Shown: in pieces, positions 4,647 through 29,029 of the stretch
Layout: each line of letters begins with the position of its first letter
Numbering within the stretch: position 1 is the stretch's first letter
IMG/VR virus record: IMGVR_UViG_3300010371_000093
Location: 1 to 29,029 of that record
Length of the DNA: 29,029 bases
Source: a virus
Strand: one strand, 5' to 3'
Program-made: the position numbers and the translations under genes
The notes under the pieces: generated by a model
Databases searched by the model: none
Told to the model about the DNA's origin: nothing
The model's input: the letters and a program-made list of their open reading frames with translations, nothing else

Positions 4647-4668
4647 CCATCAGCAAAGGAGAAACACC

Positions 4669-5068: not shown

Positions 5069-5073
5069 ACGGA

Positions 5074-6315: not shown

Positions 6316-6379
6316 GCCGAGCAGAACGAAGGCGAGGCCTTTCGTGGCGTACCTCTTGCTTATGATTTATGGATTAGGG

Positions 6380-6589: not shown

Positions 6590-6606
6590 AGGATCTCCGA
6601 GAGGGA

Positions 6607-6987: not shown

Positions 6988-6993
6988 ACCCAA

Positions 6994-7339: not shown

Positions 7340-7341
7340 GT

Positions 7342-8566: not shown

Positions 8567-9616
8567 TCAGAAGGTATAGGAAGTCACGTTGATGCGGGCG
8601 CCGACCGTGCTTTCGGAGTTTTTGTAATAAAGAGTTTGCGCGGTAATAAGCGCAAGATCATTGAACACCGATCCGTTCGTGAAACCTTCTAATGTCGGAG
8701 CGGTCGTATCCGACATGAGAGCGATTTGTTCGCCGGTTCCATTGGCATCGGAAGCGACTGCAATACAGCAATCTTGCGTTCCACCATTGCCGCCCATGAA
8801 GCCGCTCACGGTTTTTGCGGCTGGCGGAATTGCAGAAGAAAGGCCAACGCTGGTGTAACTGGTGGCCGTGGAACCGCTAGTGACGTTTAGCACATTAATT
8901 CCTGCGAAGCTGACCTTATGGCCAGTTTGAACGCCGATGGGGAATTGGTTGCTTCCATTTGTCGGCCAAATGCCGATCAAAGCCGACAGGGTATAACCAG
9001 CCGGCATATTGGCGCCGCCATAAATCAGGCTGCTACTGGTCGTCACATTGCAGGCTAGAATGTTCTTTGTGCCGTCTGTCTTACCTATAGCGTAAATCGC
9101 GACATATCCGTTTGCCGGCGCGGCGCCGGTGTCCATGCCGCCGGCACCGGTTGTGGCAAGATTGACGGTTTCCGAGTAACTGGGAAGCGAAAGAAGCGTT
9201 GCGCCGCTGCTGAGCGCCGATGCTACGATTACCTGATCGGCCGTGAAGGTGAGGCTAGTTCCTGCTGCCGCCTGCGAAGCCTTTAGGCCCGTTGCGCTGC
9301 CGATAATCGGGCTTGTGAGGGAGTTTAGAACAACCTGTGTGGCTATAAAATTTGAAAGAGCGTCTTCGATTTCAGTGACGAGATTGGTCAGATTTCCATC
9401 GTCTGGCACGCTTACGTTCTGCGCCACGCAGAAGTTGGCGATGCCGGCCGCTATGAATGCCGACTGGCGCCATACTTTGTTTAATTGATCCGATTGGGCG
9501 ATACCAGCAGAAAAACCGTTCGCGAGTAGAGATGTAAGACCGGCGTAAGTCGCTTGCGAAATTACATTCGCGCCGCCTCCCGTTGCGAACGGAAGAATAT
9601 CGGTCGTGGCCGTCAT
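8567..9616 (-). CDS. Tail fibre protein
   Basis: 349 aa. The start, DILPFATGGGANVISQATYA, and the following LNKVWRQSAFIAAGIANFCV segment match N-termini of tail fibres from many proteobacterial phages, which attach to the baseplate. The C-terminal half is Ser/Thr/Gly-rich beta sequence, as in fibre shafts and tips. GGAGG precedes the ATG. It follows the DUF2612 baseplate gene with one base between. Its receptor cannot be told. Confidence 0.8.
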   Translation of the reverse strand: MTATTDILPFATGGGANVISQATYAGLTSLLANGFSAGIAQSDQLNKVWRQSAFIAAGIANFCVAQNVSVPDDGNLTNLVTEIEDALSNFIATQVVLNSLTSPIIGSATGLKASQAAAGTSLTFTADQVIVASALSSGATLLSLPSYSETVNLATTGAGGMDTGAAPANGYVAIYAIGKTDGTKNILACNVTTSSSLIYGGANMPAGYTLSALIGIWPTNGSNQFPIGVQTGHKVSFAGINVLNVTSGSTATSYTSVGLSSAIPPAAKTVSGFMGGNGGTQDCCIAVASDANGTGEQIALMSDTTAPTLEGFTNGSVFNDLALITAQTLYYKNSESTVGARINVTSYTF

Positions 9617-14402: not shown

Positions 14403-15769
14403 TGAATTGCCCCCTGCATGTTCCTAACTAACTGATTATTAACCTCATTTTGCCGTGTCGATACGGCGGCGGCGATCGCTTGCGGATCACTGCCGGTGAT
14501 GTTGAAATTGTTCGTCTGGTTTACTGATGCGGCGGCGTTCTGCGCAATACGGCCGCGAATATCTCCTTCGCTGCTAAGAGCGGGCCGCTCATAGAAATCT
14601 GAAAACAGCCGCCCGGCATCATAGGCATTCGTCGCGCCGCGCAGCTTTGCGCCAGCGCTCTTCTCGCCGCCTTGCGTCAACTCATACTGCATGAACGCAA
14701 GTTGCTGATCTAAGGATGAACCGTAAATATCGTGTCCGGCCCAGGCTTTGAATGCCGCGCGGCGATCCTTGTGCCACTGCGCGATGCCGTAAGCGGTATT
14801 GTGATCGCCGACGGCACCTGGATTGAAATTGCTCTCAGCCTGTAGATTGGCCGCGATACCAATCGCTTGCGCGTCACTCCAGCCTTTGCTTTTGAAGTAA
14901 TCGACCGTTTTCTGCCAAGAACTTGTCGTTGTCGAAGCTGAAGGAGCATTAAAACCACCGGCCTCAGTCACATTCTTGAGGTACGCGCCGTGATCAAAAA
15001 TGTAATTATAAAGCCCGCTACCAAGCGCTTTAAGAGGATGCTGCGTGAGCCGCGCAATTCCGACCTCTAACGCCTGGACATAATGCAATATCCAGATCAG
15101 CGGTCCAGCTATCGTCATAAGGCCTTGATAGGCAATGTCTGATGCAGCGCCTACGCCGCGCAAAGCCGTCTGAAATTCATTGCTTCGTCTTGCTGCTTCG
15201 GCGCTATTCACGCCGGCTGACCGTAGAAGATTATCGTAGTTTTGAAGCTGTTGTGTTAACTGACCACTCTGCATCGCGAGCAGCGTCTTTTCGTCGATTC
15301 CGAGCACATTGGCAAAAGGCTGCGCCTGCCAGAACGGCATATGCTGGAACGTGACACTCAAATCCCTCATCGCCGCGACGGCGTCATGCACATGCTCCGG
15401 CGCAACGCCGAGTTTTTCCAAGAACTCCGCAGAACCTGGATAGCTGCGTATGAAGTGCGCCAGATTTTCTAGTGAGGCTTGCGCGGAATCCGCGCTGCCG
15501 CCGAGATTACTGACGGCGTAATCGAACCCTTTCATCGCCGCCACGGCGCTACCGGTGCGCTGCGCCGCGAAATACATCTTTTCCATAGCCTCGGAAACCC
15601 GAGCCATCATAACCATAAGGCTGGTCTCGGTGATCGCCGTGGCAATTCCGAGTGTGTTTACCGCCTTGGTTGCGCCCGCAATGGAGTCGGTGAATTTTTT
15701 ATATTTGCTGTCGTCGATCTTAAAACCAAGCGCGACGAGAAATTCCTTAAGCGTGAACGTCTGCGCCAT
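14399..15769 (-). CDS. Short tape measure protein with C-terminal tail lysozyme domain
   Basis: 456 aa. The N-terminal part (TLKEFLVALGFKIDDSKYKK) and long helical middle with a hydrophobic patch are tape-measure-like. About residues 285-400 form a phage tail lysozyme domain: VDYFKSKGWSDAQAIGIAAN, LQAESNFNPGAVGD with the likely catalytic Glu, and AYGIAQWHKDRR. It sets tail length and digests peptidoglycan during entry. At 456 residues it is short for a tape measure, implying a short contractile tail. Confidence 0.85.
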   Translation of the reverse strand: MAQTFTLKEFLVALGFKIDDSKYKKFTDSIAGATKAVNTLGIATAITETSLMVMMARVSEAMEKMYFAAQRTGSAVAAMKGFDYAVSNLGGSADSAQASLENLAHFIRSYPGSAEFLEKLGVAPEHVHDAVAAMRDLSVTFQHMPFWQAQPFANVLGIDEKTLLAMQSGQLTQQLQNYDNLLRSAGVNSAEAARRSNEFQTALRGVGAASDIAYQGLMTIAGPLIWILHYVQALEVGIARLTQHPLKALGSGLYNYIFDHGAYLKNVTEAGGFNAPSASTTTSSWQKTVDYFKSKGWSDAQAIGIAANLQAESNFNPGAVGDHNTAYGIAQWHKDRRAAFKAWAGHDIYGSSLDQQLAFMQYELTQGGEKSAGAKLRGATNAYDAGRLFSDFYERPALSSEGDIRGRIAQNAAASVNQTNNFNITGSDPQAIAAAVSTRQNEVNNQLVRNMQGAIQ

Positions 15770-15770
15770 A

Positions 15771-15941
15771 TCATTTGTCCTTATTCGCCTGGGCGATGCG
15801 GTAATCGTTCTCTAACTGAACGTCGATCGCGTCGTTCATGCGGGCTATGTCGCAAATGTCAAGCGCGCCATTTTTGAGGCTCTCGTATGAGCACAGGCCT
15901 TTCATGACCGGCCGCATAAGCCAGTCGTCGCCCTCCGGCAT
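15771..15941 (-). CDS. 56-aa DUF6889-like protein (tail chaperone partner)
   Basis: MPEGDDWLMRPVMKGLCSYE, then NGALDICDIARMNDAIDVQL. I recall this pattern as DUF6889, always next to tail assembly chaperone genes. It begins 11 bases after the chaperone stop, and its frame is open upstream into that gene, so it could also be reached by a -1 frameshift, as in lambda G/GT. It ends just before the tape measure start. Confidence 0.78.
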   Translation of the reverse strand: MPEGDDWLMRPVMKGLCSYESLKNGALDICDIARMNDAIDVQLENDYRIAQANKDK

Positions 15942-15952
15942 TACCGCGGCGT

Positions 15953-16360
15953 CTATTCCTGAGCCGGGGTTGCTGCGGATGCCTTTTGCAAGAGGGCGTC
16001 GATAAAAGGGCCGAAATTGTCCTCCAGAACTTTTTGCGCTATTTCCAGCATATTCGGCAGGCTCAAATCATTGAACATGAGGTTGCCGGTCGCTGACATC
16101 AAAGGCGCCCAAACGGCACCTTGTAATTTCTTGACGACAGAGAGGCAGTTTTTCAGCACATAATTGGCATCGTCCTCGGACAGCTTCGATACGGCCGTTG
16201 CGATATATCCGATTGCCAGAAGGGGATCTTTATCCCGCACGGCTCCGGCACCAACGATACTTGAGAATAACGATCCCATGCGGCGCAGAACGTGAAACTG
16301 CGTGAAAAGAGGTAATTTATCGGATTGGTATTTAACCCCGTCGATCTCAAACTCTGCCAT
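15953..16360 (-). CDS. Tail assembly chaperone
   Basis: 135 aa. AEFEIDGVKYQSDKLPLFTQ and FHVLRRMGSLF at the start, then a helical body (LPNMLEIAQKVLEDNFGPFI). This matches chaperones found between tail tube and tape measure genes. It would keep the tape measure soluble before tube assembly. Confidence 0.8.
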   Translation of the reverse strand: MAEFEIDGVKYQSDKLPLFTQFHVLRRMGSLFSSIVGAGAVRDKDPLLAIGYIATAVSKLSEDDANYVLKNCLSVVKKLQGAVWAPLMSATGNLMFNDLSLPNMLEIAQKVLEDNFGPFIDALLQKASAATPAQE

Positions 16361-16378
16361 TTAAACCCCCGTTTCCGA

Positions 16379-16861
16379 TTAAACCGATCCGGCACCAAAC
16401 GTCGCAAGATTCGCGAGCAAGCCGCCGCCGAGGCTGCTATCGAGCATGCAGTCGAAAGCCCACTCGTTATAGCGGCCGTTCTTGTCGTAAGTGACGTCGG
16501 GATGCTTTTTGAAGGCTCCATAGGTGGCCGTGATCGAATCCCCGGAAACGGGATTTTTGATCGAAATGACGTTAAGGCCCCAAGCCGCAGAGGATTGGGA
16601 TTGTACATTGTACATCTGGCTCAACTGTGCATTGACAGGCGATGTTTTGAGCAAGCGCACAACGATTTGCCCCGCCTTGCTGGCATTGAGGCTGTTCATC
16701 ACGCTACCGTCGGCAGATACGGTCTGAATGTTCTTATCGTCGCGATAAGAAACGGTAATGCCTTCCTCTGTGGTCGCGGCGCCAGCGCCGAGATTAATCG
16801 AGCCGCCAGGTCCGTTGATCGCGGCCTGGACGTCAAGAAAGGAATAAGTTGATACGGCCAT
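16379..16861 (-). CDS. Tail tube protein (DUF3277)
   Basis: 160 aa. TYSFLDVQAAINGPGGSINL, ADGSVMNSLNASKAGQIVVR and LLKTSPVNAQLSQMYN are family signatures, and PDVTYDKNGRYNEWAFDCML near the end. It follows the sheath gene, the standard order. GGGAG lies six bases before the ATG. Confidence 0.88.
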   Translation of the reverse strand: MAVSTYSFLDVQAAINGPGGSINLGAGAATTEEGITVSYRDDKNIQTVSADGSVMNSLNASKAGQIVVRLLKTSPVNAQLSQMYNVQSQSSAAWGLNVISIKNPVSGDSITATYGAFKKHPDVTYDKNGRYNEWAFDCMLDSSLGGGLLANLATFGAGSV

Positions 16862-16871
16862 TTAAAGCTCC

Positions 16872-18350
16872 CTAGCGATTTACGTTGACGAGGATGTTGA
16901 CCGTGTCGACGGCACCGGCGAGTTTCGCGGCAATCTGAATAGGCGGCGATTTTCGCGCAGCACGATCCGCTGTGGCTTGCAGCGCTACCGTCTCGGCATA
17001 AACGTAATATCCTCGATCAAGGAAATCGCCCTGCTTAAGGTTGCCGAAACCGCCGGTGGTCCAGGTGCCGGGCGCGAGCAGTCCATTGGCGACGAAGGCC
17101 GCGCAAGTCGCCTCGCATACGTTCACAATCTGATGCACGCCGGCGTCGGTCTGTGGGATCTTCGTCGGATTGGTGTAGAGCAGGTTGAAAACATTGACCT
17201 GCAGTTCGTTCGCGAGCGCGTCGGTTCCATGAATTTCGTCGATAAAGGCCGGTCCGGACATCCAGCCATTTTCGATAATAGCCGTGCCGTTGTTGTAATT
17301 GACGAAGTAATTGTAGCGCTTGGTATCAAGCACCGCGGCTTGCGAGGAAGTTAGATTTTCCGCGACGATCCCTGGCTCCTGCTTGTACATGAGATCGATA
17401 ACGGTGTTGTTGCCCTGGAAATTGACCGTGAACTCACGCCCGAAGATCGAGGCAGCGGAATAAGAATTTGACGAACTCCAGCTGCAGAATGTGCGCGTAT
17501 AGCCGAGCGCCATAATCTCTGAGCCGATGTCGGTCGTGGTGGTCGAAACAAGAGCGCCGGGTTCGGTCGTGCTGATGCCATAAATATGCGGATTGCCGGA
17601 AGCTTGGATATATCCTGCGATGGCAATGTGATCGTTATCAACGATGTCTGGAGACGCGACCGTAAGGCCATACCACTGCGTCTTCAGATCATCGAGGATC
17701 GTGACGGCAGCCAGCGCGCTTTCGGCTGCGATGCCGTTGATTGGTGTAGATGCACCACTGGCCGAAGTGAGGCCGAGTAGCGCTGATACGTCCGTACCGG
17801 CTCCGGCCGTGGCATAGGCGACGGTTGAGCTTGTTCCGGTGGTCGACGACGTGACTTGGAAAAATTCACCTGTCCATACGCAGGTTGCGTGGCCCGAGAG
17901 CGCCGTCGTGATGATCGTGGCGATGCCGTTAAGATTGCTGGCACCGGTGAAATTGAGGGCCGTCAAATTGCGCGCAACACCATCGATCGTGAAATCGACA
18001 CCACCGTTGCTGATAGCTGTAAAATTGCTCAATTGCTGCTGCGTAGAGTTAAGGGCGGCGCCATTCAAAATGCCCGCCGTCGCGCTATGCGCCCAGCGCC
18101 CGACATAAAGTTGTGTCGGCTGAGGAATTTGGGAAAAGAAAAGCTCGGCCGCGAGATATTCAGGCGCCGAGGTGCCGAAATCCGCCGCCACTTCCTGCAG
18201 ATCGCCATAAGTGCGAATGCGCTGGCTAACATCGATTACATTGCTGTCGCCCATGATAAGAAGGGAGTCGACATTGAGAAATTGCGCACCAAGCGGAGCG
18301 AGATTGACCGAGACGTCAATTAGTCTCGATACGGGTAAACCTTGAGACAT
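16872..18350 (-). CDS. Tail sheath protein (DUF3383)
   Basis: 492 aa. Opens SRLIDVSVNLAPLGAQFLNV, then RIRTYGDLQEVAADFGTSAP and FFSQIPQPTQLYVGRWA, which define this sheath family. The C-terminal half has NTVIDLMYKQEPGIVAENLT and the RGYYVYAETV and PPIQIAAKLAGAVDTVNI stretches. It establishes the phage as contractile-tailed. GGGAG precedes the ATG by eight bases. Confidence 0.92.
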   Translation of the reverse strand: MSQGLPVSRLIDVSVNLAPLGAQFLNVDSLLIMGDSNVIDVSQRIRTYGDLQEVAADFGTSAPEYLAAELFFSQIPQPTQLYVGRWAHSATAGILNGAALNSTQQQLSNFTAISNGGVDFTIDGVARNLTALNFTGASNLNGIATIITTALSGHATCVWTGEFFQVTSSTTGTSSTVAYATAGAGTDVSALLGLTSASGASTPINGIAAESALAAVTILDDLKTQWYGLTVASPDIVDNDHIAIAGYIQASGNPHIYGISTTEPGALVSTTTTDIGSEIMALGYTRTFCSWSSSNSYSAASIFGREFTVNFQGNNTVIDLMYKQEPGIVAENLTSSQAAVLDTKRYNYFVNYNNGTAIIENGWMSGPAFIDEIHGTDALANELQVNVFNLLYTNPTKIPQTDAGVHQIVNVCEATCAAFVANGLLAPGTWTTGGFGNLKQGDFLDRGYYVYAETVALQATADRAARKSPPIQIAAKLAGAVDTVNILVNVNR

Positions 18351-18353
18351 TTG

Positions 18354-19217
18354 TTAAACTCCCTGTTGATTAGGTAGGGTGACTTTGATGTTGCGGGTAA
18401 GCGGCGACACATCCGTGACCAGTTGGTCGTTGCCGCTCAATTCGAGAATGTCGAGCACGGGGTAAACGCGGACCACCGCGCGGCGGAAATTCAGCAAGAG
18501 ATCGATGCGCCGAACCCAGATGTTATTGACCAATTCCGGCACTTGGATCATGTCGCCGGCGTCGATAAATCCCATGCCGGCCAGTTGCAGGGCTTCGCGG
18601 TTTTGCGCTATCTGCCATCCATCGCGCAGCCGCGAGGCATTACGCATGCAAGAAGGGCCGTAAAACGTGCAGAGCACGCCGATCTCTTCTTGGTGGTAGA
18701 GAATATCACCCTGCAGAGCGGCCGCATTGATGTCGAAAGTCTGGCCATCGTCTAAGGTGGCGTCCGGCTTGTCATATTGCTGCTGTGATACGTCGTAGGG
18801 CTCGGGTGAGGCATCGAAAGTCTGACCGGTATCAAAATCACCGCTGGCTTGATCCTGATCACCGGAATAACGACTCCCGTCGTCGAATTTCGCGCCCGGT
18901 GCCTCATATGTCTTACTTGCGTGTATGATAGCGCTGTAGGTGTCGGATTTAAGATTATCGACGCCGAATGCCATCCAGTTGATGTTTTGTGCCTGCATAT
19001 TCGATGGCACCGGTTGCCAGCGTGGCAGCACTAGGTTTCCAACAATGCCCGACATGCCGCTGAAAAGCGGTTGCAAAAAACGTGAAAGATCGTCGTCGTA
19101 ATGAGGCGGCTTTCGATCCCAGAAATCGCCGTATTGATTGTATTTGGCACCAAGATCGTCCCACTTCTTATCTTCCGGGATAAGCGTGCCGCCGGTTGCG
19201 CTCGTCGTGATAGTCAT
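18354..19217 (-). CDS. Neck/tail terminator protein (LIC_12616-like) with acidic insert
   Basis: 287 aa. RWQPVPSNMQAQNINWMAFG near the start and GVLCTFYGPSCMRNASRLRD further on match the phage neck terminator family (LIC_12616, gp12-like). Between them, residues about 104-165 are an Asp/Gln/Tyr-rich stretch with recurring FDDG, FDTGQTFD and LDDGQTFD, which looks like a repeat insertion. The C-terminal domain resumes with RIDLLLNFRRAVVRVYPVLD. It would cap the tail and join it to the head. Overlaps the next gene upstream by four bases. Confidence 0.8.
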   Translation of the reverse strand: MTITTSATGGTLIPEDKKWDDLGAKYNQYGDFWDRKPPHYDDDLSRFLQPLFSGMSGIVGNLVLPRWQPVPSNMQAQNINWMAFGVDNLKSDTYSAIIHASKTYEAPGAKFDDGSRYSGDQDQASGDFDTGQTFDASPEPYDVSQQQYDKPDATLDDGQTFDINAAALQGDILYHQEEIGVLCTFYGPSCMRNASRLRDGWQIAQNREALQLAGMGFIDAGDMIQVPELVNNIWVRRIDLLLNFRRAVVRVYPVLDILELSGNDQLVTDVSPLTRNIKVTLPNQQGV

Positions 19218-19594
19218 GTCGAGGCATCCTGTGTATCAATCATCTCGCACTCATTGGCGGTAAAGCCCTGTCCGAAATGCGACCAATTGTTTGGTTTCTT
19301 GACGACGTAATTGTTTCCGTTCCACGTCACAATGTCCGGCTCAAATCCAGCCTGCACCGCGTAAAGCGTCGTGCGTGTGTGAACCGTGATCACTTTCTTC
19401 GCCAGTTCGGAATCGGCGGCGCGTTGCATCGGCAACATACTTCCGACTGTCACCACGCCATAAATATTCAGTTTCGTTGTGGCCGGGTTGAACTCAAAGC
19501 CGCTGTTGGCGACTTCTTGCGTCTTGCGGGTTATGATTATTGGGTCGCTGAAATCGGGATCGTCCAGCACATCGGAGACATCGAGATCGGCCAT
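19214..19594 (-). CDS. Head-tail connector protein, putative
   Basis: 126 aa, beta-rich: DPIIITRKTQEVANSGFEFN, then YGVVTVGSMLPMQRAADSEL and PNNWSHFGQGFTANECEMID. Position between a gp10-like tail completion protein and the neck terminator suggests a head-tail adaptor. Family not named with certainty. Start and end share bases with neighbours. Confidence 0.72.
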   Translation of the reverse strand: MADLDVSDVLDDPDFSDPIIITRKTQEVANSGFEFNPATTKLNIYGVVTVGSMLPMQRAADSELAKKVITVHTRTTLYAVQAGFEPDIVTWNGNNYVVKKPNNWSHFGQGFTANECEMIDTQDAST

Positions 19595-20079
19595 TATTTT
19601 TTCCGAATGACGTAAGTGATCGAATTGAGCAGTTGCCCGGTATCGATCAGGGGCTTTGTTCTATTCACGCCGCGCGCGGCGCGCGCCTCCAGCGTGGATT
19701 GCGCGAGGGCCGGCGGTATGCCCGCCGTGATGCGCGCCTTGACGGCTGACTGCGCCACAAGGCCGGCGGCATTCAGCCCGTTTTGCACGGAGTCAAGATC
19801 TCCGGCCAAGGCATTCTGCCCGGCCTTGCGAAAGATCGATGCCACCTTGTCGGAGACCGACTTAATACCGGGCACCAGAAAAGGGCGTGCCGGTATGTTA
19901 TTGATCGGACTGCCAGTTTCCTGAATATAGCCAATCGCCGCGTTGCCTATTGCGGCATCATCAGTGCGATTTGTGTTGTCCGCCGGGATGCCGACATAGA
20001 CGACGCTTTCCGTAAGAGCAGCGAGGGCTTTTTCGAAATCACGGCTATGATCCTTGACGATCGTAACGGCCGTATTCAT
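19594..20079 (-). CDS. Tail completion/neck protein (HK97 gp10-like)
   Basis: 161 aa. ESVVYVGIPADNTNR, then AAIGYIQETGSPINNIPARP and FLVPGIKSVSDKVA, ending KPLIDTGQLLNSITYVIRKK. The IPARPFL and LIDTGQLLNSI blocks are typical of gp10-like neck proteins in this class. Overlaps DUF4054 gene by four bases. Confidence 0.82.
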   Translation of the reverse strand: MNTAVTIVKDHSRDFEKALAALTESVVYVGIPADNTNRTDDAAIGNAAIGYIQETGSPINNIPARPFLVPGIKSVSDKVASIFRKAGQNALAGDLDSVQNGLNAAGLVAQSAVKARITAGIPPALAQSTLEARAARGVNRTKPLIDTGQLLNSITYVIRKK

Positions 20080-20465
20080 AGCTGCGCGCCGCCGGCGCCC
20101 ACCATGCGGGCGAGGCGAAGATATTGGAGGCCGTAGGTCGTGAGGTTAAAATCACCACCTTTTTCCAACGTCACGTTCTGCGCATCGTATCCAGCCGAAA
20201 CCTTATCGACGGCCTTCGCCGACACAACACCTTGCGTAACACCAGGGACGCCGCCGGTAGCTGCCGCCTTCGCGCGTTGCCGAGCCAGCGCGATATTATG
20301 CGCTGTAAAAAGCTGCACACCTTGATCCTGAAGCGATCCCCAGCGCGGCGACGAGCAAAGCTGATAGCCAAGGTTCAGGTAGAACTCTACCTGTCCCTGG
20401 CTATAATTTGTTGTGTTGCTGAACTCAGGAAAGTTCGTAACGAAGTCGCTATAGGCAATCGTCAC
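20076..20465 (-). CDS. DUF4054 head-tail connector
   Basis: 129 aa. YSDFVTNFPEFSNTTNYSQG, VEFYLNLGYQL, then QLFTAHNIALARQRAKAAAT and TYGLQYLRLARMVGAGG. This is the usual pattern of DUF4054, the adaptor bound to the portal or head vertex. Its start overlaps the preceding stop. Confidence 0.87.
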   Translation of the reverse strand: MTIAYSDFVTNFPEFSNTTNYSQGQVEFYLNLGYQLCSSPRWGSLQDQGVQLFTAHNIALARQRAKAAATGGVPGVTQGVVSAKAVDKVSAGYDAQNVTLEKGGDFNLTTYGLQYLRLARMVGAGGAQL

Positions 20466-20773
20466 CGATTGGCCCGGCCGCGGCCAAAGCGGCTCTGCGC
20501 GGGCTTTTCGGCTTCATCGCTGGCTGCATCGACTTCAGCCGGTGCTTCCTGCAACTTTTCCTCTGGCTCACTGGAACCGCTTTCCCTTTGCTGCGCGGGC
20601 TTTTCGGCTTCATCGCTATGGATGAAATTCTGCGTATAGCTATGATCCGCTACTTCATCATCGACTTGCTGAACGCCGGGTTCGAAACGTAGCTCCCTTG
20701 TGGAAAGCCATGTTTCATTGCTCGGAAGCCTAAGAGTGAAGGCCGTATGGACGTTGATTTGCCGCTTAGCCAT
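20462..20773 (-). CDS. 103-aa head-region protein with duplicated acidic segment
   Basis: The ATG at 20773 follows GGAAGGGGG; the frame is open further upstream but over the major capsid gene's strand shadow. The first 40 residues (RQINVHTAFTLRLPSNETWL ... FEPGVQQVDDEVADH) are folded-looking, like small head proteins following the capsid gene. The C-terminal half is acidic and low-complexity, with DEAEKPAQ twice, from an exact 27-bp direct DNA repeat. Function unknown; possibly a head accessory protein. Confidence 0.7.
   Translation of the reverse strand: MAKRQINVHTAFTLRLPSNETWLSTRELRFEPGVQQVDDEVADHSYTQNFIHSDEAEKPAQQRESGSSEPEEKLQEAPAEVDAASDEAEKPAQSRFGRGRANR
20495..20617 (-). repeat. 27-bp exact direct repeat within a coding region
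   Basis: CTGCGCGGGCTTTTCGGCTT and the seven following bases are identical at 20495-20521 and 20591-20617, 96 bases (32 codons) apart, so the reading frame is kept. The repeat encodes the doubled DEAEKPAQ. It points to a small in-frame duplication. Confidence 0.85.
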
Positions 20774-20789
20774 GTCGGCCCCCTTCCTC

Positions 20790-21851
20790 TTAGATGTTGT
20801 CGCGATAGCCGATGGTTTCCGGATACACGAACTCCATGCAGCCCAGGCGACCGAAATACGTGCACATCTGATAGATAGAGCGGTATTCGATCGGAGTGCG
20901 CTGCAACGGAACCAGCGGATAGCGGACGCGCTGCTTGTCCTTCGTGTAGGCCACGATACGGCCGTGACCATTTTCGGTGAATGCCGTACCGCCGGAGCCG
21001 CGGCCAGTTAGCCACTTCACCGGAGCGATGCGCAGCGGGCGACCATTCACGCGCATCGATACGGAATTGTCCTCGAGGAATTTGAGGATCGAAACCGAAC
21101 CGGCAGTCGTGACAGGGGTTGCCGCCAGATAGCCGTAAGGCGCCGGAGGAATGAGAAGGTCAGACGGGCATACCGCGTAGCCTGACTTTTTCCACACGTC
21201 CGTGACCAACTCATTGACGTCCGCCAAAATCTGCGCTGGCGTCGTAGAGCCACCGAGCCATGCGCCTGTGACGGCGTTGCCGGTGCTGCTGACAATAGCA
21301 GTGCTGTTGACGAGGCCGGTTTTGTTCATGTCGGTGTCGCCGATATAAACCATCTCATCGATGTCCATATTGTGCTTGATCTTGATGCCCTCAAGCTTTT
21401 GCTGGTCGACTGGGCGACCCAATTTCTGAGCGCTTTCAAGCTCAGGGATGGAATAGCCAAGTTCCATGCCCCACAGGTAAAGTGGGTTTGGAGTTTTGGC
21501 GATGTCCAGCGCCATATTGGCAATCTGGGTGCTGTCCTTACCGATGAAGGCTTTGCCCTTCGGGTTCATTCCGCCAGCGGCCGCAAAGGTGCTGTTGGTG
21601 AAGCTCGAAGTTTCATCGGCAATCGAGACGTCTTCGCGCAAATCGATGTCGCGCGACCAAGTCACGCTGACAAGCGGTTCATGCAAAGCGGGATCGAGGC
21701 GTTCCAACTCATTGATAAGGAACGCACCGGTGCTGTCGATCGTAGCGCGATCGAAAGTGAACAGCTGATCATTCGTTTGCACGCGCTTGCGCACAGACGA
21801 AAAGCCTTTGGGCGGCATGATCAGGCTGGACGTGAGGTGGTCGGTATTCAT
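20790..21851 (-). CDS. Major capsid protein (DUF2184)
   Basis: 353 aa from ATG 21851, which has AGGAG nine bases upstream; the ATG at 21857 is only three bases from it. Contains FDRATIDSTGAFLINELERL, then WSRDIDLREDVSIADETSSF, YLWGMELGYSIPELESAQKL and a C-terminus with PIEYRSIYQMCTYFGRLGCM. These fit the DUF2184 HK97-fold capsid family. It forms the head shell. Preceded by the decoration protein and the protease/scaffold, the standard order. Confidence 0.9.
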   Translation of the reverse strand: MNTDHLTSSLIMPPKGFSSVRKRVQTNDQLFTFDRATIDSTGAFLINELERLDPALHEPLVSVTWSRDIDLREDVSIADETSSFTNSTFAAAGGMNPKGKAFIGKDSTQIANMALDIAKTPNPLYLWGMELGYSIPELESAQKLGRPVDQQKLEGIKIKHNMDIDEMVYIGDTDMNKTGLVNSTAIVSSTGNAVTGAWLGGSTTPAQILADVNELVTDVWKKSGYAVCPSDLLIPPAPYGYLAATPVTTAGSVSILKFLEDNSVSMRVNGRPLRIAPVKWLTGRGSGGTAFTENGHGRIVAYTKDKQRVRYPLVPLQRTPIEYRSIYQMCTYFGRLGCMEFVYPETIGYRDNI

Positions 21852-21870
21852 GTTCATGATCTCCTTTGGA

Positions 21871-22677
21871 TTACATTCTGTAGGCGATTTCGGTGTTGCC
21901 GTTGGCATCCGCCGGTCCCATGAACGTCGCGTTCGGAACAGGGACGTTGGTCGCGGTCACGGTGATGTCGAAGCCGTCGCCGACAACGAAGTCGGTGCTG
22001 CCGTCCGTGATTGTGAGGACAAGCTGCTGGTTCGTGAACGTAACCGCTTGGCCAGATCCGGAATAACCTTGAGAGTCGATCAGGTTGCCGTTCGGATCGT
22101 AAAGGTTCCACAGCGCGATATTCGTGCCAGCGGATTCCACACGGGCCTTGTACACACCGGGTTGCGCTAAAGCTCCAGCCGTAATAGCGCTTGTCACGCC
22201 ATTGCCGGTATTGCCGCCCGACTTCGCCGCTGAAACGCCCGAACCGCTCGCTGCGGCTTCGATACCGCCTTGAACGAGATTGCCTGACGTTGCCGCCGTG
22301 CGGACATAGACCTGTCCACCCTTAACCGGTGCCGTCGAGTTTTGCAGAAGGACGCTGACATAACCCTTTTTGCAAACATCGGCCGGATAAGTGGTGTTCG
22401 GCGTCGAAGTGCCGAGACCGTCCGTGGTGTTGGTGTTGCTGATCGGGAAAGGACGCAGAAGAATGCCGTAAATGGCGCTTCCTGCATCGCCGGCCAGAAC
22501 CTTGCGGGCGTTATGGCTTGTGCCGTCGATCACGACGAACTGGCCGAACGCCGCCGGCGGATTGGTCGCGTCATAGTTCATGGCTTCGACAATCGCGCCT
22601 TCTTTGCGGGACAGATCGCCCGGAATGCCGGAAGGCATACGGTCGAGGAAAGCCACGTCGTTTGTCTGGATTCTCAT
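21871..22677 (-). CDS. Capsid cement/decoration protein, putative
   Basis: 268 aa. GDLSRKEGAIVEAMNYDATN, then GSAIYGILLRPFPISN, GYVSVLLQNSTAPVKGGQVY and VRTAATSGNLVQGGIE are typical of structural cement proteins located between scaffold and capsid genes. About residues 160-250 form an added beta domain (GVYKARVESAGTNIALWNLY). AGGAG precedes the ATG by seven bases. Confidence 0.8.
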   Translation of the reverse strand: MRIQTNDVAFLDRMPSGIPGDLSRKEGAIVEAMNYDATNPPAAFGQFVVIDGTSHNARKVLAGDAGSAIYGILLRPFPISNTNTTDGLGTSTPNTTYPADVCKKGYVSVLLQNSTAPVKGGQVYVRTAATSGNLVQGGIEAAASGSGVSAAKSGGNTGNGVTSAITAGALAQPGVYKARVESAGTNIALWNLYDPNGNLIDSQGYSGSGQAVTFTNQQLVLTITDGSTDFVVGDGFDITVTATNVPVPNATFMGPADANGNTEIAYRM

Positions 22678-22688
22678 ATTTGATCTCC

Positions 22689-23465
22689 TTAGGCTTGTTT
22701 GCGATCTGCCCAGAACTTGGCATTCGCAGCGTTGATGGATGCAGGGGTCACGGTCTTGCCGAAATCGCGCACGGTGAGCTTGTCGCGAGTGCCGCCGGCG
22801 TTGTTCTTCTGCCGGATGAGTTCGGAAGCGCCTGTGAAGATGATCGCGACGGTTGGTGCCGCCATCTTATCGAAGTCGGCGTCTTGGCCAGCCAGGAACG
22901 GCTCGATCACGCTTTTTCCGCTATCGGTGGCATAGGCTGAAGCGAGCACCTTGCGCTGGCATTTGCAGACGGAATCCGCGAATTTCTTCGGATCGGCCTT
23001 GGCGTCGTGCGTCGGAACCTTGAAGCCAGGCGAGAGAAGCTCGGCGCGGGACGCAAGATCCTGCAGAGCGGCCTTGTGCTCGGCATCCTTGGTCTTTTTG
23101 TCGTTGCCTTTGCCTTCTTCCTTTTCCTCTTCTTCGGTCTCTTCTTCTTTTTCATCATAGGAATCGCCGCCATCGACCAGCTTTCTGATCAGTTCTTCGA
23201 GCTTCGCAACGCGCTGCTCAAGACTGTTTTCGCCTTCGTCGCCGGTCTTCTCCTCGCCTTCTTTTTTGCCTTCGTTCTTTGCATTCGGATCGGCCTCGTC
23301 CTCGCCTTTTTCACCGTAGTTATGGACGTGCACCTGAACGCCATTGGCTTCCGTGCCTTCGCCCATCTGGGTCTCGGCATCTTTGACCGCTTCGGCGAGC
23401 GCTTTTTCGTCATTCAACGTCATAGCGGCCCGGATGCGGTCCCACACCGTAACTTTCTTCTTCAT
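22689..23465 (-). CDS. Nested scaffold protein (internal start within protease gene)
   Basis: In-frame ATG at 23465 (MKKKVTVWDRIRAAMTLNDE) follows AGGAG with exactly seven bases between (23473-23477), stronger than the protease's own GTG start. The 258-aa product would be the scaffold domain alone: charged coiled coil, an acidic run, then a folded C-terminus. This copies the lambda C/Nu3 plan, where scaffold is made in excess from an internal start. Inference from sequence; no expression evidence. Confidence 0.7.
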   Translation of the reverse strand: MKKKVTVWDRIRAAMTLNDEKALAEAVKDAETQMGEGTEANGVQVHVHNYGEKGEDEADPNAKNEGKKEGEEKTGDEGENSLEQRVAKLEELIRKLVDGGDSYDEKEEETEEEEKEEGKGNDKKTKDAEHKAALQDLASRAELLSPGFKVPTHDAKADPKKFADSVCKCQRKVLASAYATDSGKSVIEPFLAGQDADFDKMAAPTVAIIFTGASELIRQKNNAGGTRDKLTVRDFGKTVTPASINAANAKFWADRKQA

Positions 23466-24155
23466 AGTTGGACTCCTATCTTGGATTGCGCAGCGCGGGC
23501 CACATCGGCCCCGCTCAACCAGTGCAACGTGGTTTCCCACGATGTCGAATTGCCGCCCGCGACCCGGCTCAACTTGCTCGTATTCCGCTTGGTATCCGCA
23601 GGACACCTCGCGCTTGCCGTCGCGGACGGCCTCAATTGCGTCTTTGTCGTGAATAAGAAGATCGGCAATGATGCAATCGTCATAGATGCCTGTGCCGCGG
23701 CGCACGTTCTGAACATGACCGACGGCAAAGTTTTTGTAATTTTCCGGGTCTACTTGGTCTTCGGGATGGTCGTTCGTAACCGGCTTCCCTTCGAAAGACG
23801 CAAGAGTTTCCGGACGAAAGACTTCCTCAGGATCTCTCTGCACTCGGATAAGACCGTCACGGCCCGGTTCAACCGTCGTTCCGTCGTCCGGGCCATAGAT
23901 CAACTCTCCGGTACGCGCGATTGCTACATCGCGGCACAGTAAAAATCCCTCGTTCGTCAGCGACTGGTTTTTGCTGATCGCGTGCGGCGTATAGAACCGC
24001 ATCGTCTTTCTGGGATGCTCGCCCGGCAGCGCTTCGTCTTCGCCCGCTTTTTTATAGGCAATAGCGGCGGCTTGCGCGCGCGTCTTTCCTGCTCTTATCT
24101 CGACTGCAATATTATGGCCTATCGTCGCGCGCGAGCTTCCTGGCTCAAGGGGCAC
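22689..24155 (-). CDS. Prohead protease (DUF2213) fused to acidic scaffold domain
   Basis: 488 aa from GTG at 24155, with GGAG six bases upstream. Residues about 60-225 are the DUF2213 protease: LASFEGKPVTNDHPEDQVDP, a likely nucleophile Ser185 (REVSCGYQAEY) and His209 (VGNHVALVERGRCG). A short region of unknown role comes first (PLEPGSSRATIGHNIAVEIR). From about 231 onward it is highly charged scaffold-like sequence with acidic runs, then a conserved end. It would cleave scaffold and head proteins during maturation. A strong internal start gives a separate scaffold product. Confidence 0.87.
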   Translation of the reverse strand: MPLEPGSSRATIGHNIAVEIRAGKTRAQAAAIAYKKAGEDEALPGEHPRKTMRFYTPHAISKNQSLTNEGFLLCRDVAIARTGELIYGPDDGTTVEPGRDGLIRVQRDPEEVFRPETLASFEGKPVTNDHPEDQVDPENYKNFAVGHVQNVRRGTGIYDDCIIADLLIHDKDAIEAVRDGKREVSCGYQAEYEQVEPGRGRQFDIVGNHVALVERGRCGPRCAIQDRSPTMKKKVTVWDRIRAAMTLNDEKALAEAVKDAETQMGEGTEANGVQVHVHNYGEKGEDEADPNAKNEGKKEGEEKTGDEGENSLEQRVAKLEELIRKLVDGGDSYDEKEEETEEEEKEEGKGNDKKTKDAEHKAALQDLASRAELLSPGFKVPTHDAKADPKKFADSVCKCQRKVLASAYATDSGKSVIEPFLAGQDADFDKMAAPTVAIIFTGASELIRQKNNAGGTRDKLTVRDFGKTVTPASINAANAKFWADRKQA

Positions 24156-24522
24156 TTGGTGCTCCGGAGGGTTGAGGAGCCGATGCTGCGGCGACGAGAG
24201 GTGCTGGCGGCGGCGCGGCCGTGGGAAGGACGGCCGGTGAGGGCGCTATGGGGGCCTGATCCGTGACCGGCGCCAGCGTTTTCATCGTGTTCGTGATGGT
24301 GTCTTCCTTGTTGCGACTGCCAAGCGACGAACCGAAATAGTAAGTGATAACGCCGGCGAAACCGGTGCCCCCCAGAAGGCCGAGCAGGATGTTGACTAGA
24401 TCGCGGTTCTCCGGCGGCACGCCATGGTTCATCAGGGCGTAGAGCACGAAGAAGAAGCCGACGACAATGATGAGCGCGAGTGCCATCTGGCCCGAGCAGC
24501 GCTGCAGGTTGGGGAAGTTCAT
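24145..24522 (-). CDS. 125-aa two-pass membrane protein (holin-like)
   Basis: Start ATG at 24522 with AGAGG upstream. Two membrane segments: MALALIIVVGFFFVLYALMN at about 13-32, and LVNILLGLLGGTGFAGVITY at 43-62, then YFGSSLGSRNKED and a long proline/alanine-rich cytoplasmic tail. Two-pass topology fits a class II holin or a small phage membrane protein; the YFGSS-GS-KE pattern recurs in such proteins. It lies in the head cluster rather than the lysis region, so the role is unclear. The 3' end overlaps the protease GTG by 11 bases. Confidence 0.72.
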   Translation of the reverse strand: MNFPNLQRCSGQMALALIIVVGFFFVLYALMNHGVPPENRDLVNILLGLLGGTGFAGVITYYFGSSLGSRNKEDTITNTMKTLAPVTDQAPIAPSPAVLPTAAPPPAPLVAAASAPQPSGAPSAP

Positions 24523-24542
24523 TGTATCCTCTTGGGAAAAAA

Positions 24543-25064
24543 TTATTGTAAATCTCCGGACAGTATCCATGTATTTGCAGAAACTTGTCTAAGCTCTGCC
24601 ACGGAATATTGGCCGAACAACCTCAGGGTGGTTGATGAATTGATTGTCACGCCAGGACCTTCTGCGACTGAAAGTTGTCCTATACCAACCTGAGAAATAG
24701 ATATTTTTGCTCCGACTGGAATTGGAGCGCTTGAATTAGGTGGTACCGTCAGAGTGCATGAAGATGAACAATTCATCTGAATAAAATTGGGCGGTGCTGA
24801 TGAGCTTCCTGCATCAGCAGATACAATGACATAATCCCCTATATGAGAAGTTGAATTGAAATAAACAAAGTTAACCCCGGCAAGATCTGCCCAAATATTT
24901 GTTATATCGTTATACGCATTCTGAAAATTTTGACGTATTACAGAGGAATCCAAATCCGAATCTGACGCAGGTACTGTAGGGTCTATAGTTGAGACATTAC
25001 TGGCGTATGCAGAATTAACCAGAAAAAGAAATAGAAAAACGCTATGAAAAATTATTTTCATCAT
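24543..25064 (-). CDS. Secreted protein with signal peptide, 173 aa
   Basis: ATG at 25064 follows AGAGG. Residues 1-20 (MMKIIFHSVFLFLFLVNSAYA) form a strong signal peptide with an AxA cleavage site. The mature start, STIDPTVPASDSDLDSSVIR then NFQNAYNDITNIW, is the same module as in the large beta-helix protein. The rest is beta-rich with one Cys pair (CSSSC) and ends in ELRQVSANTWILSGDLQ, a tail-fibre-like tip motif. Its bases are visibly more AT-rich than the neighbours, which suggests later acquisition. Role unknown; export is unexpected in a head gene cluster. Confidence 0.75.
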   Translation of the reverse strand: MMKIIFHSVFLFLFLVNSAYASNVSTIDPTVPASDSDLDSSVIRQNFQNAYNDITNIWADLAGVNFVYFNSTSHIGDYVIVSADAGSSSAPPNFIQMNCSSSCTLTVPPNSSAPIPVGAKISISQVGIGQLSVAEGPGVTINSSTTLRLFGQYSVAELRQVSANTWILSGDLQ

Positions 25065-25123
25065 ACAAACCTCTTTGAGAGATCCATCATGTTGGATTCG
25101 AGAGCATCGATCAGGCTTGATTA

Positions 25124-25303
25124 TTACTGTACGGATGAAGGATGCATCATCTGATCGATAAGTGCGGGAATGCCTTGCGCGGTTTTTTGCAGATCGGCGC
25201 GGCAATCATTTAACGATTGCTTCAAGTGCTGATTATAAAGAGGCTGGACGATATTGCCCACTACCAGAATAATGATAAGCCAGATGAGCGATGTTTTCGA
25301 CAT
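25124..25303 (-). CDS. 59-aa N-anchored membrane protein
   Basis: ATG at 25303 follows a full AGGAGG four bases upstream, overlapping the end of the beta-helix gene. One membrane segment (LIWLIIILVVGNIVQPLY) then a polar helix, NQHLKQSLNDCRADLQKTA. Topology is like a small i-spanin or an anchor. Too short for family assignment. The 60 bases after it (25065-25123) hold nothing recognisable. Confidence 0.65.
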   Translation of the reverse strand: MSKTSLIWLIIILVVGNIVQPLYNQHLKQSLNDCRADLQKTAQGIPALIDQMMHPSSVQ

Positions 25304-25311
25304 CTAACCTC

Positions 25312-28300
25312 CTAATACGGCGTGCAGCTAAAGCTTACTACATCGCCGCTTACGGTTGTTCCCTGTAAACCAGCAGATGTAGTTGTTGATGCGATCTGCG
25401 ACCATGAAGAGGTGTCGGAAGTAGTGGTAGCGTCTAGAAAATTGCCGCATACGTAGCCATGCGGTGCTGCCAACGCGCTAGAGCCATTTGGAGTAATTAT
25501 TACCGTGCAGGCCCCGGTAGTACCCGAGGTAAAACTGCCTATCGCTCCCGTACCGGTCGGGGCACTCGCAGTACAACCGGAAACCGAGAATGTGTCGGAA
25601 CCATTCTTCTCGGCAATAATGCCAGTTGCCGACCCGAGAATGTTGAACGCTTTCGAGGCTACCCGGAAATCATTCGGGCCGATACGAGCGCCGGAAAGCG
25701 TGGTCGTGGCCGCGAGGCTGAGGGCATATTTTTGAGTACCAGAATTATCATCATATGCCTGGTTGCCAGAAATATATAGATTATCGACAGTAACTTGATT
25801 GGCAAGACAGATGGCCGCCTTTAACGCATCGGTAGCGGTAGTAAACCCATTATTTGCAAAGGTATTATCTTGAATGTTGATGTTGCTTATGACCGCAGTA
25901 TTAGCCGCATTTGGACCGATCATCGCAATCCCGCATTGACCAGCTTCCGTTATAATGTTTCCGGTTATATTCACCCCTGTGAGGGCCGTCCCTGCGGTTG
26001 GTACTTGAAGAGCGATTCCAGCGCCCGCCGTAGTTTTAATTCTGTTCCCGCTAATTACCGTAGTAGCTTTAAAGCCTGTTGATGGGTTAGCTTGCCCATA
26101 ATTGATGAAAACCGCTCTGCTTGTGTTATATAAGCTATTGCCACTTATAACGGTTTCTACTCCCCCTATGGTATTTAGAGTGCCATAATCAACCGCAATG
26201 CCGCTAATAGCGTTACTAGCCGTTGTCGTGTAAATACTTTCATTTCCGTAGCAGACATTACCGACCGCTGTAAAATTTGATCCGCCAGAATTGGCTATGC
26301 AAGCCGGTGTTGTTAATGTGCCACCACCAGTCGAATTGTAGCCAGCGATCACTATATTATCGTTAAATGTTTCGTGCGCCAGCACAGTCGCGGCGGATTG
26401 CGCCTCTACAAACGCTCCGTAGTGAGCCGGGTTTATGATGATGTTGCCAATCACGGAATCAACATCACCGCCGCTGATCGAAAGGGCATCGCCAATCCCA
26501 TTAGAACCAGCTTGGCTATTACCTCCCTTACCACCACCGAAGCGGCCAGCGTTCATAATAATATTGTAATTTTTGAACCCATTAAACGGAAAATCTGTAG
26601 CTAATCCTGTCGCATTCGTGTCATGGATAAAAAGATGATTGATATTAAAATCAGAGGCACAGGATAAATTAACGCCTTTCGAAGAAACGTTATAGCTTGC
26701 TAGCGTTGCGCTTTCGTCATCAATTTCGAAGTAGCTAAGCTCATTATATTTTTGATTAAGGGCTTTTGTCGGCGTGCACGTCGACGCCGTAACGCCGTTT
26801 GATAGCGCCCGGCTGGTAATAGTCGCCGCTGTCTTGTCTGTTGTCGAAATCCATTTCAAGACCGATTTACCAATACCTTGCCCACGAATGCTGACATCCG
26901 TATCGAGAATTATGCCGCTGGCCATAATGCAAAGTCCAAACGGCAGCATGATGGTACCGCCACCAGCGGTATTGGCAGCCGTATCCGCTGCTTGCAAGGC
27001 GGTTGCGTCATTGGTTCCGAACGTCCCGCGTGCGATCCCAGCAATGCTGGTACTCGGGGCAACCGTAAGAACCGCATTGCCGCCGGAGACGCTTGCAATC
27101 GTGGTGTTAAGAACGTTTACAAAGGTAAGCGCGGTGCCGGTATTGGTTGCCGTGGCATTGACATTCATAATAACGGAAGTGCTGCTTCCAAAATCGATGA
27201 CCTTGGCCCCCGCAGGAATGCCGGTGCCTATAATCGATTGACCTAAAACAAGGCCGGTTAAGTTCGGAAGGTTGGCGATAATATTGGAGCCGCTCGTCGT
27301 ATCTCCGGTAGTGGCCTGATTGGTTCCAGCAAAGATGGTGATCATCTTGCCCGTATCATTGTTGGTGAATGAGTAACCCACACTCGATATAGTTGTGCTG
27401 CTAGCGGTCGTTGTGAAGTCCGTGCGGAATTGCCCGTCGCATTTAGCCCCATAGTTGGATACATATAAAGGTGGCTGACCGATGATAGTCTGCAACAGAG
27501 CCTGATTGACGGTTGTGCTGGCCGATAGAGGAGAAATGGCCGTTCCGTTTCCGGCGTAATACCCGAGTTGATTAGGGCCACCAGTGTTGACTGTTCCAGA
27601 ACCGCCGCCGCCAGTCCCATTCGCAGCCGCCGTAATTCTTCCGTTCGAATCAACGGTTAGATTAGTGTTTGTGTAGCTCCCTGGTGTAACCGCGGTTGTC
27701 GGCAGGAGCGCCGAATTAAGCGTGCCGCTTGAGATATTGCTCGCATTTGTCGTGTCGGTTGTCGCTGATGCGGCAAGACCGGAAATATCAGATGCCGCCG
27801 GCTGCGCCTGCGAAACGACGCCTGCTGTCGATATACCCGTCAAAAACTGGTGCAAGACGGGATCAATGCTTTCAACACCGCCCAACGATATAGCTGACGG
27901 ATTCGGCAGATCAGAACCCAACAATGAGCGGCTTGAGATTGTCCCATTGGAGCCAGTAGCGAAAACGACCCCGTTACCAAGACCCGATAACGTCAATCCA
28001 CCGAAAGTCGGCGACGAGGAGGTTCCCAGGCCAATATCGGTGCGTGCCGTAGTGGTGTTCGCCAGAGCCGCCGCTACAGAGCCGGTGCCGGAGGCAATCA
28101 CATCGCCAGTCAAAGATGTAAATCCGCCACCGCCCACACCGGCAACGCCAGCACATATAAATCCTGTATTGTTTGTCCATCCAATTGCGTCTCCCGCTAA
28201 AGGATTGCAGGCAGGAATTGAAATACCAGTGGGAGATCCGCCGGTAACAGAACCCAATAATTGATTAGCGCCAATCGATACTGATCCTGCAATTATCGAA

Positions 28301-28470
28301 TAAATATTCGTGATGTCGTTCCAGGCGCGCTGGAACTGCTGGCGCAGCACGGCGCTGGATAACGCGCTGCCCTGAGCGGGCTGTGATGTGTCGATGGTGG
28401 ACGTGGTTGCATAGGCGTTTGATCCTCGCAGAAGCGCGAGCAGCACCAGTAAAGCTGAAAGCTTCTTCAT
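25312..28470 (-). CDS. Large beta-helix tailspike-like protein with signal peptide
   Basis: 1052 aa from ATG 28470, which has AGGAG eight bases upstream and overlaps the previous stop. Residues 1-22 (MKKLSALLVLLALLRGSNAY...) look like a signal peptide. Residues 25-62 repeat the STID/DITNI module. About 65-335 is tail-fibre-like sequence (YTNTNLTVDSNGRITAAANG). From 336 it is pectate-lyase-type beta-helix: NYGAKCDG, then TNDATALQAADTAAN and GGGTIMLPFG, interrupted by a ~138-residue beta insert (347-484). Such folds often degrade or bind surface polysaccharide. A signal peptide is unexpected for a virion spike, so a cell-surface role is possible. No catalytic residues can be named. Confidence 0.82.
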   Translation of the reverse strand: MKKLSALLVLLALLRGSNAYATTSTIDTSQPAQGSALSSAVLRQQFQRAWNDITNIYSIIAGSVSIGANQLLGSVTGGSPTGISIPACNPLAGDAIGWTNNTGFICAGVAGVGGGGFTSLTGDVIASGTGSVAAALANTTTARTDIGLGTSSSPTFGGLTLSGLGNGVVFATGSNGTISSRSLLGSDLPNPSAISLGGVESIDPVLHQFLTGISTAGVVSQAQPAASDISGLAASATTDTTNASNISSGTLNSALLPTTAVTPGSYTNTNLTVDSNGRITAAANGTGGGGSGTVNTGGPNQLGYYAGNGTAISPLSASTTVNQALLQTIIGQPPLYVSNYGAKCDGQFRTDFTTTASSTTISSVGYSFTNNDTGKMITIFAGTNQATTGDTTSGSNIIANLPNLTGLVLGQSIIGTGIPAGAKVIDFGSSTSVIMNVNATATNTGTALTFVNVLNTTIASVSGGNAVLTVAPSTSIAGIARGTFGTNDATALQAADTAANTAGGGTIMLPFGLCIMASGIILDTDVSIRGQGIGKSVLKWISTTDKTAATITSRALSNGVTASTCTPTKALNQKYNELSYFEIDDESATLASYNVSSKGVNLSCASDFNINHLFIHDTNATGLATDFPFNGFKNYNIIMNAGRFGGGKGGNSQAGSNGIGDALSISGGDVDSVIGNIIINPAHYGAFVEAQSAATVLAHETFNDNIVIAGYNSTGGGTLTTPACIANSGGSNFTAVGNVCYGNESIYTTTASNAISGIAVDYGTLNTIGGVETVISGNSLYNTSRAVFINYGQANPSTGFKATTVISGNRIKTTAGAGIALQVPTAGTALTGVNITGNIITEAGQCGIAMIGPNAANTAVISNINIQDNTFANNGFTTATDALKAAICLANQVTVDNLYISGNQAYDDNSGTQKYALSLAATTTLSGARIGPNDFRVASKAFNILGSATGIIAEKNGSDTFSVSGCTASAPTGTGAIGSFTSGTTGACTVIITPNGSSALAAPHGYVCGNFLDATTTSDTSSWSQIASTTTSAGLQGTTVSGDVVSFSCTPY

Positions 28471-29029
28471 TCCAGCAACTCCTTGGGTATTATGGGTTCC
28501 GCGTAGCAGCGGCAATTGGGTAACGTACCGGCGTGTCCGGTAAGGCCATCGAGTGTTGGCGGGCTTCCCCACCTGACAAACTTTCCCTCCATCTTTCGAT
28601 GGCTTGGTCGAACATCTTGATCGTGAGCGGTGCGCCAGATGTATCCGTCGCTGCCAACAAACTCAGCTCTGGCTTGAGTAAGTACAGAAGAAGTCCGTGA
28701 TACTTCTGTTCGCGCAATAGTCGCTGCACGCGCCGCCGCCACAGCGCCTGATCTTTGGATCTCGCGGGCAATCTCAGAAGCGCGACCTGATTGCTCGGCA
28801 TTCTTGATCACCAGTTCGTGAACGCGCTCCGCCGCAACCGCCGGCATGCTCGTAATGAGCGTTACCTGTTTCTGCATCAATTCCTGAAAGCGCACCCCGA
28901 TAGGTGCTCGCTTGATTTCTTCCCTAATGCCGCGGCTTAGTTCTTCGGTGGCCGTTTTCCATGCCCGCGCGTCGGCCTTGCTGACTTGCTCGACCATCAG
29001 TCGCGCACGGGTCTTAGCCCACGGCTCCA
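28467..29029 (-). CDS. Phage head morphogenesis protein (SPP1 gp7/MuF-like), 5' partial
   Basis: The frame runs off the right edge; the first in-window ATG (28997) is probably internal, since the preceding codons (EPWAKTRARL) read as coding. Visible are TATEELSRGIREEIKRAPIG, ARTEVSRTSSVLTQARAEFV and IWRTAHDQDVRPSHRKMEGK, ending at a GHAGTLPNCRCYAEPIIP block. These are the C-terminal signatures of MuF-like proteins, which act with the portal in head assembly. The stop overlaps the beta-helix ATG. Confidence 0.88.
   Translation of the reverse strand, partial: EPWAKTRARLMVEQVSKADARAWKTATEELSRGIREEIKRAPIGVRFQELMQKQVTLITSMPAVAAERVHELVIKNAEQSGRASEIAREIQRSGAVAAARAATIARTEVSRTSSVLTQARAEFVGSDGYIWRTAHDQDVRPSHRKMEGKFVRWGSPPTLDGLTGHAGTLPNCRCYAEPIIPKELLE

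Follow-up and report, generated by a model that had tools for sequence, protein, structure and literature searches.

A candidate Sec-exported, exchangeable spike cassette between the muF and head protease genes of a contractile-tailed phage

Introduction

The beta-helical tailspikes of tailed phages, such as those of HK620, Det7 and CBA120 (TSP3), are cytoplasmic proteins without a signal peptide that join an N-terminal attachment-type module to a variable beta-helix of the polysaccharide-enzyme type. Tailed-phage spikes are not thought to be made by export and folding outside the cytoplasm, and genes with a signal peptide are commonly assumed not to encode virion fibres; one DGR survey counts the absence of signal peptides as support for phage origin (PMC6199706). 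Our search of the open-access literature found no tailed-phage fibres with signal peptides. Host Sec is used by other phage proteins, including endolysins (PMC6116005) and Lom (PMC12309495). Lom, the signal-peptide and SAR endolysins, spanins and moron lipoproteins are all lysis or host-surface proteins, and none has a fibre or spike architecture. Head fibre proteins of the phi29 gp8.5 type (PF11133) are encoded in the head gene cluster.

Here, we analysed a window of 29,029 nucleotides (positions 1 to 29,029 of the 29-kb IMG/VR record IMGVR_UViG_3300010371_000093), in which four genes, two of them for proteins with predicted signal peptides, lie between the genes for a MuF-like protein and a head maturation protease. 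Like the tailspikes, the largest of these proteins has a conserved N-terminal module, possibly for attachment, and a variable, predicted beta-helix, but it carries a predicted cleavable type-I signal peptide and an even number of cysteines that could pair, and its gene lies among head genes. The beta-helix has its best PDB fold matches in alginate C-5 epimerases (AlgE) and secreted pectate-lyase-like enzymes, but shares ~15% identity with them and is joined to a phage fibre module. The cassette shares its place in the head cluster with the head fibre genes, and Edwardsiella phage ZHS has a 90-aa head-fibre protein (PF11133, E 9e-7) in the same slot, but the spike proteins of the window have no Pfam match at E 0.1 and the ZHS protein is not the signal-peptide spike. 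Finally, the window proteins would resemble Lom and the lysis proteins in their use of Sec, and differ from them in their spike-like build.

Results

The window derives from a contractile-tailed, integrase-bearing phage with genes for a tail sheath, a major capsid protein and a tail lysozyme. A gene for a GcrA cell-cycle regulator (PF07750, E 2e-23) is directly followed by one for an N6/N4 DNA methylase that partly resembles CcrM (2194-4067, plus strand), a phage-borne pair reminiscent of alphaproteobacterial GcrA/CcrM cell-cycle control. The GcrA gene beside a DNA methylase gene suggests an alphaproteobacterial, hence Gram-negative, host. When genomes were searched for a host with the sheath, the sole match was one metagenome contig labelled as an archaeon. 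At the left end of the window (1-324, plus strand), a reading frame contains tandem eight-residue repeats of the NTGxxSAA type.

The genes of the muF-protease slot and its borders are, in order of transcription:

28467-29027, minus strand: upstream border of the slot, MuF-like minor head protein truncated at the window end (Phage_Mu_F, E 4.7e-16; phrog_324, E 1.6e-61)
25312-28470, minus strand: 1052-aa protein with a predicted signal peptide, module, linker and right-handed beta-helix; 14 cysteines in the mature part
25124-25303, minus strand: 59-aa protein with a single transmembrane segment (ORF call)
24543-25064, minus strand: 173-aa protein with a predicted signal peptide, module and tail-fibre-type C-terminal domain; ATG ATG start, CSSSC pair, 2 cysteines in the mature part
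24145-24528, minus strand: 127-aa two-transmembrane protein (59% identical in L003; phrog_9990, function unknown, E 4e-7)
22689-24155, minus strand: DUF2213 head maturation protease, downstream border (PF09979, E 1.3e-51; phrog_530, E 4e-55)

All four cassette reading frames were confirmed as closely packed and co-directional with muF, which bears out the proposal of the initial annotation that a cassette with exported proteins, two of them with signal peptides, separates these head genes. The ATG of the 1052-aa gene at 28470 overlaps the muF stop codon (ATGA), with AAGGAG just 5′, and the stop codon of the two-transmembrane gene overlaps the protease start at 24155. A purine-rich, Shine-Dalgarno-like stretch lies 5′ of each of the four reading frames, and the genes between the 1052-aa start and the two-transmembrane stop have their own ribosome-binding sites. 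With ends that overlap muF and the protease gene, and with closely packed genes, the cassette appears to belong to the late head operon.

This layout bears on the suggestion that the cassette serves lysogenic conversion or superinfection exclusion, in which proteins expressed from the prophage would cover or alter the host surface and exclude other phages. The integrase gene, the signal peptides, the AT-rich, moron-like 173-aa gene and a polytopic membrane protein in the slot of a related locus (L011) agree with such a role. However, the start of the first gene coincides in part with the muF stop codon, the genes all run closely spaced in the late direction, and the spikes are built like receptor-binding proteins. 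Promoter-like sites numbered 10, against 5.5 ± 2.2 in shuffled sequences (both strands taken together), had weak consensus and were not clearly placed, and terminator-like sites were at chance level. The suggestion thus gained no promoter or operon support, and we consider it improbable.

Signal peptides were called by a rule of our own, not by SignalP, which asks for a positive n-region, a hydrophobic core and an AxA-like site; it is not clean, as it also picks up spanin-like proteins. The rule flagged 49 of the 791 reading frames in the first set of loci, including both window proteins. Their predicted signal peptides are of type I: a lysine-bearing n-region is followed by a hydrophobic core and an AxA site, and both end in AYA; cleavage is predicted between MKKLSALLVLLALLRGSNAYA and TT in the 1052-aa protein, and between MMKIIFHSVFLFLFLVNSAYA and SN in the 173-aa protein. 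The N-terminal features of the larger protein are:

28408-28470, minus strand: predicted Sec signal peptide, MKKLSALLVLLALLRGSNAYA (rule-based score 5.4)
28306-28407, minus strand: N-terminal fibre module, STIDxxxPAxxSxLxSxxxRxxFxxAxNDI; DNA homology to L003 stops here

Cysteines were counted after the predicted cleavage site, which gave 14 and 2 for the mature window proteins. Even cysteine numbers are described as favoured in Gram-negative exported proteins and are thought to limit wrong disulfides, as outlined in one report after E. coli work (PMC7678975). Among the cysteine-containing proteins of a hand-curated set, the count was even in 23 of 26 with a signal peptide and in 6 of 15 without. 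Counted automatically and without redundancy, the first set of loci gave 20 of 22 against 60 of 161 others (p = 1.4e-6). Over all loci, even counts were found in 26 of 32 signal-peptide clusters and 127 of 325 others (Fisher p = 4e-6), although this count takes in spanin-like false positives, which weaken rather than help the result, and the related sequence sets overlap in ancestry. Based on the type-I signal peptides and the even-cysteine bias, the two window proteins are probably exported and disulfide-bearing; the parity would be hard to explain unless folding were extracytoplasmic. Signal peptides arising by chance were ruled out by their recurrence together with the cysteine parity, and alternative starts yielding a cytoplasmic form were rejected, as neither window gene has a start codon at the module start.

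The mature parts of both proteins open with a common module of ~35 residues (48% identity), whose invariant residues are STID, PA, S, L, S, V, R, F, A and NDI. Scanning viral contigs for this module yielded 24 loci. In about 15 distinct contigs, a signal peptide precedes the module and the cleavage site lies right at it, while four genes start at the module and have no signal peptide (L027, L046, L048 and L058; L060 is a weaker match of this kind). In podovirus-like contigs, one gene with a signal peptide (L025) and these four without it follow the same small CDxCG neck gene. Elsewhere, the signal-peptide module gene lies downstream of the genes for baseplate J, tail protein I and a fibre base (L026, L038, L040 and L050), and the signal-peptide spike gene of L071 is likewise just downstream of these three; all five loci carry such spikes, and identity between their tail genes and the window's is about 41-65% (42-65% for the first four). 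In L047, L053 and L056, the signal-peptide module gene lies between two other conserved tail genes. In addition, the ends of signal-peptide proteins match tail-fibre PHROGs, namely phrog_9017 in L003, L026 and L070 and phrog_15881 in L008. The related loci with signal-peptide spikes are metagenomic contigs throughout, with inferred hosts and proteins known from their genes. A module search of isolate phages, plasmids and 84,980 genomes gave no confirmed match; jumbo-phage capsid genes appeared at E 0.4 and above and were taken as chance.

The sequences suggest that the module belongs to phage fibres, occurring with a signal peptide in most proteins and without one in at least four distinct fibre genes. 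The premise that a signal peptide rules out a virion-type spike is therefore not supported, since the same module is found with or without it at tail-fibre loci. The opposite possibility is that the proteins are cytoplasmic virion spikes and that the hydrophobic N-terminus is a virion anchor or a misread start rather than a working signal peptide; the fibre domains and virion loci would fit this, and export is read from sequence alone. Against it, AxA cleavage sites lie directly before the module, the forms without a signal peptide indicate that the hydrophobic stretch is unneeded for the fold, and the strong even-cysteine bias is confined to proteins with signal peptides. We regard this possibility as very improbable.

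Two further proteins of the window phage, both without signal peptides, have relatives encoded beside signal-peptide spikes elsewhere:

8567-9616, minus strand: ordinary tail fibre (phrog_11303/11518, tail fiber)
8085-8555, minus strand: 156-aa protein (BLAST E 2e-18 and 4e-11 to signal-peptide proteins of L047/L053)

The base of the tail fibre is homologous to genes just upstream of the signal-peptide spikes in L026, L038, L040 and L071 (BLAST E 1e-13 to 1e-19). The relatives of the 156-aa protein are small signal-peptide proteins encoded directly after the spikes (L047:11974-12558 and L053:6115-6645). Some accessory proteins follow the spikes in having a signal peptide: the DUF4376-type protein (E 1.8e-7) has one in L047, while its relative at 8085-8555 does not.

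AlphaFold modelled the 1052-aa protein with low confidence (mean pLDDT 50; core 70-86). In a Foldseek search, this model matched epimerases and tailspikes best (E 3e-5 to 1e-3), among them alginate epimerases and the tailspikes of HK620 and CBA120 (TSP3). We tentatively assign the protein a right-handed beta-helical fold of the tailspike/epimerase type, at the low confidence of the model. Beta-helix relatives of its distal part occur in L070 and L071 (33-35% identity); their mature N-termini differ from that of the window protein, yet a signal peptide is again present. The L071 gene lies at a tail-fibre locus adjoining relatives of the window's own tail genes, and that of L070, by inspection, directly follows a capsid-like gene and precedes a sheath-like gene.

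The 173-aa protein matches phrog_18179 (E 7e-15), phrog_8780 (minor tail protein, E 2e-10) and phrog_6953 (tail fiber, E 5e-7), and its C-terminus also matches minor tail proteins of Gordonia phages; its AlphaFold model was discarded as uninformative (pLDDT 38). The 59-aa protein had no family match in Pfam, PHROGs or NCBIfam. The 127-aa two-transmembrane protein is holin-like by appearance only; it had no match in Pfam or NCBIfam, to a holin family or otherwise, and its PHROG matches are all of unknown function.

We surveyed 88 loci with both slot borders, among them many that are closely related to one another. Most gaps were < 600 bp and empty, and 15 were larger; 10 of these 15 larger slots held one or more signal-peptide proteins of several families, a count that includes a 157-aa protein of L125 recognised by eye. 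The slot is also empty in two of the closest isolates (Magia and IFTN9). In a sister phage (L003), the DNA is 97.4% identical to the window over 14462-24216 and 88.6% identical over muF, the signal peptide and the module, but 24217-28305 (minus strand) is replaced by other DNA (blastn). The L003 slot encodes a 486-aa signal-peptide module protein with a tail-fibre C-terminus, a 260-aa signal-peptide protein whose family recurs beside the spike of L070, and an 828-aa signal-peptide module protein with arabinofuranosidase-like and SGNH hydrolase parts. Retention of the signal peptide and module with exchange of the distal part is the usual pattern of receptor-binding proteins. Neither this swap nor the module common to both proteins had been noticed in the initial annotation. 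In a more distant phage (L057), the slot holds a 1557-aa signal-peptide module protein. An assembly error is unlikely, as the slot is likewise filled in L003 and L057 and the reading frames are intact.

The GC content of the 173-aa gene (24543-25064) is 39.7%, compared with 53.6% for the window, 56.8% for the protease gene and 57.2% for muF. This low GC content, the absence of the cassette from most relatives and its replacement in L003 support, at the level of sequence, a mobile, exchangeable unit of separate origin, in line with the origin first proposed for the AT-rich stretch.

Other slots differ in content. L004 has a GDSL protein without a signal peptide. L011:6682-7788 encodes the 368-aa polytopic membrane protein, which by eye resembles an O-antigen ligase/polymerase; this likeness was dropped, as Pfam gave no match. 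L137:3305-9025, in a 72-kb phage, encodes two large signal-peptide proteins. One has 636 aa; the other has 877 aa and 25 cysteines, one of which lies within or adjacent to the signal peptide. In L008, a stretch of more than 7 kb upstream of the protease (372-7591) holds two signal-peptide proteins, two SGNH-hydrolase-like reading frames, a lipoprotein-like one and a papain-like one. The small slot proteins of L119, L125, L131 and L137 had no match by profile or tblastn, and a capsid-decoration identity for them was dropped. Reading frames that by eye resemble HNH/AP2-type and Vsr-like homing endonucleases lie in the slots of L073 (5443-5961), L111 (4688-5212) and L010 (6717-7223, minus strand), which suggests that the slot attracts mobile genes generally.

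Discussion

We give an even chance to the reading that the window carries a swappable cassette of late spikes or fibres that would be exported by Sec, stabilised by disulfides and most likely docked on virions at lysis. The spikes would be made late and pass via Sec into the host periplasm, where, after loss of the signal peptide, they would fold and form disulfides. Set free at lysis, they would bind and digest surface polysaccharide, and their exposed N-terminal module would, by what we infer to be the most likely path, dock them on progeny virions. In other phages, the module without a signal peptide presumably attaches fibres to virions. Docking would have to come after lysis, because a periplasmic protein cannot join cytoplasmic head or tail assembly before it; to our knowledge, such docking of a spike has no precedent in tailed phages.

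The beta-helix, SGNH and arabinofuranosidase-like domains make a surface-polysaccharide function likely, as judged from domain matches and models. This part of the depolymerase idea in the initial annotation stands; its other part, release, is a rival to docking. The proteins would then be free secreted depolymerases, never on the virion, that reduce the capsule or biofilm surrounding a lysed cell or loosen the envelope. Signal peptides and predicted disulfides, polysaccharide-type folds, SGNH hydrolases and the location of the genes away from the tail genes (window, L003, L057 and L137) are all compatible with this. It leaves unexplained, however, the conserved N-terminal module, which is common to genes without signal peptides at virion fibre loci, as well as the tail-fibre C-termini and the small signal-peptide proteins without enzyme domains. 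We therefore judge free release unlikely, though it is the main rival.

Returning to exported spikes that dock on virions, the cassette may represent a widespread and so far undescribed class in tailed phages, in which receptor-binding or depolymerase spikes would be routed through Sec and Dsb, acquire disulfides in the periplasm and be fitted to virions only at lysis; we hold this wider proposal to be possible, at somewhat less than even chances. Should exported spikes exist, many soil phages would have their receptor-binding proteins mislabelled as auxiliary enzymes, and part of tailed-phage assembly could take place outside the cytoplasm, in a step dependent on Sec and DsbA.
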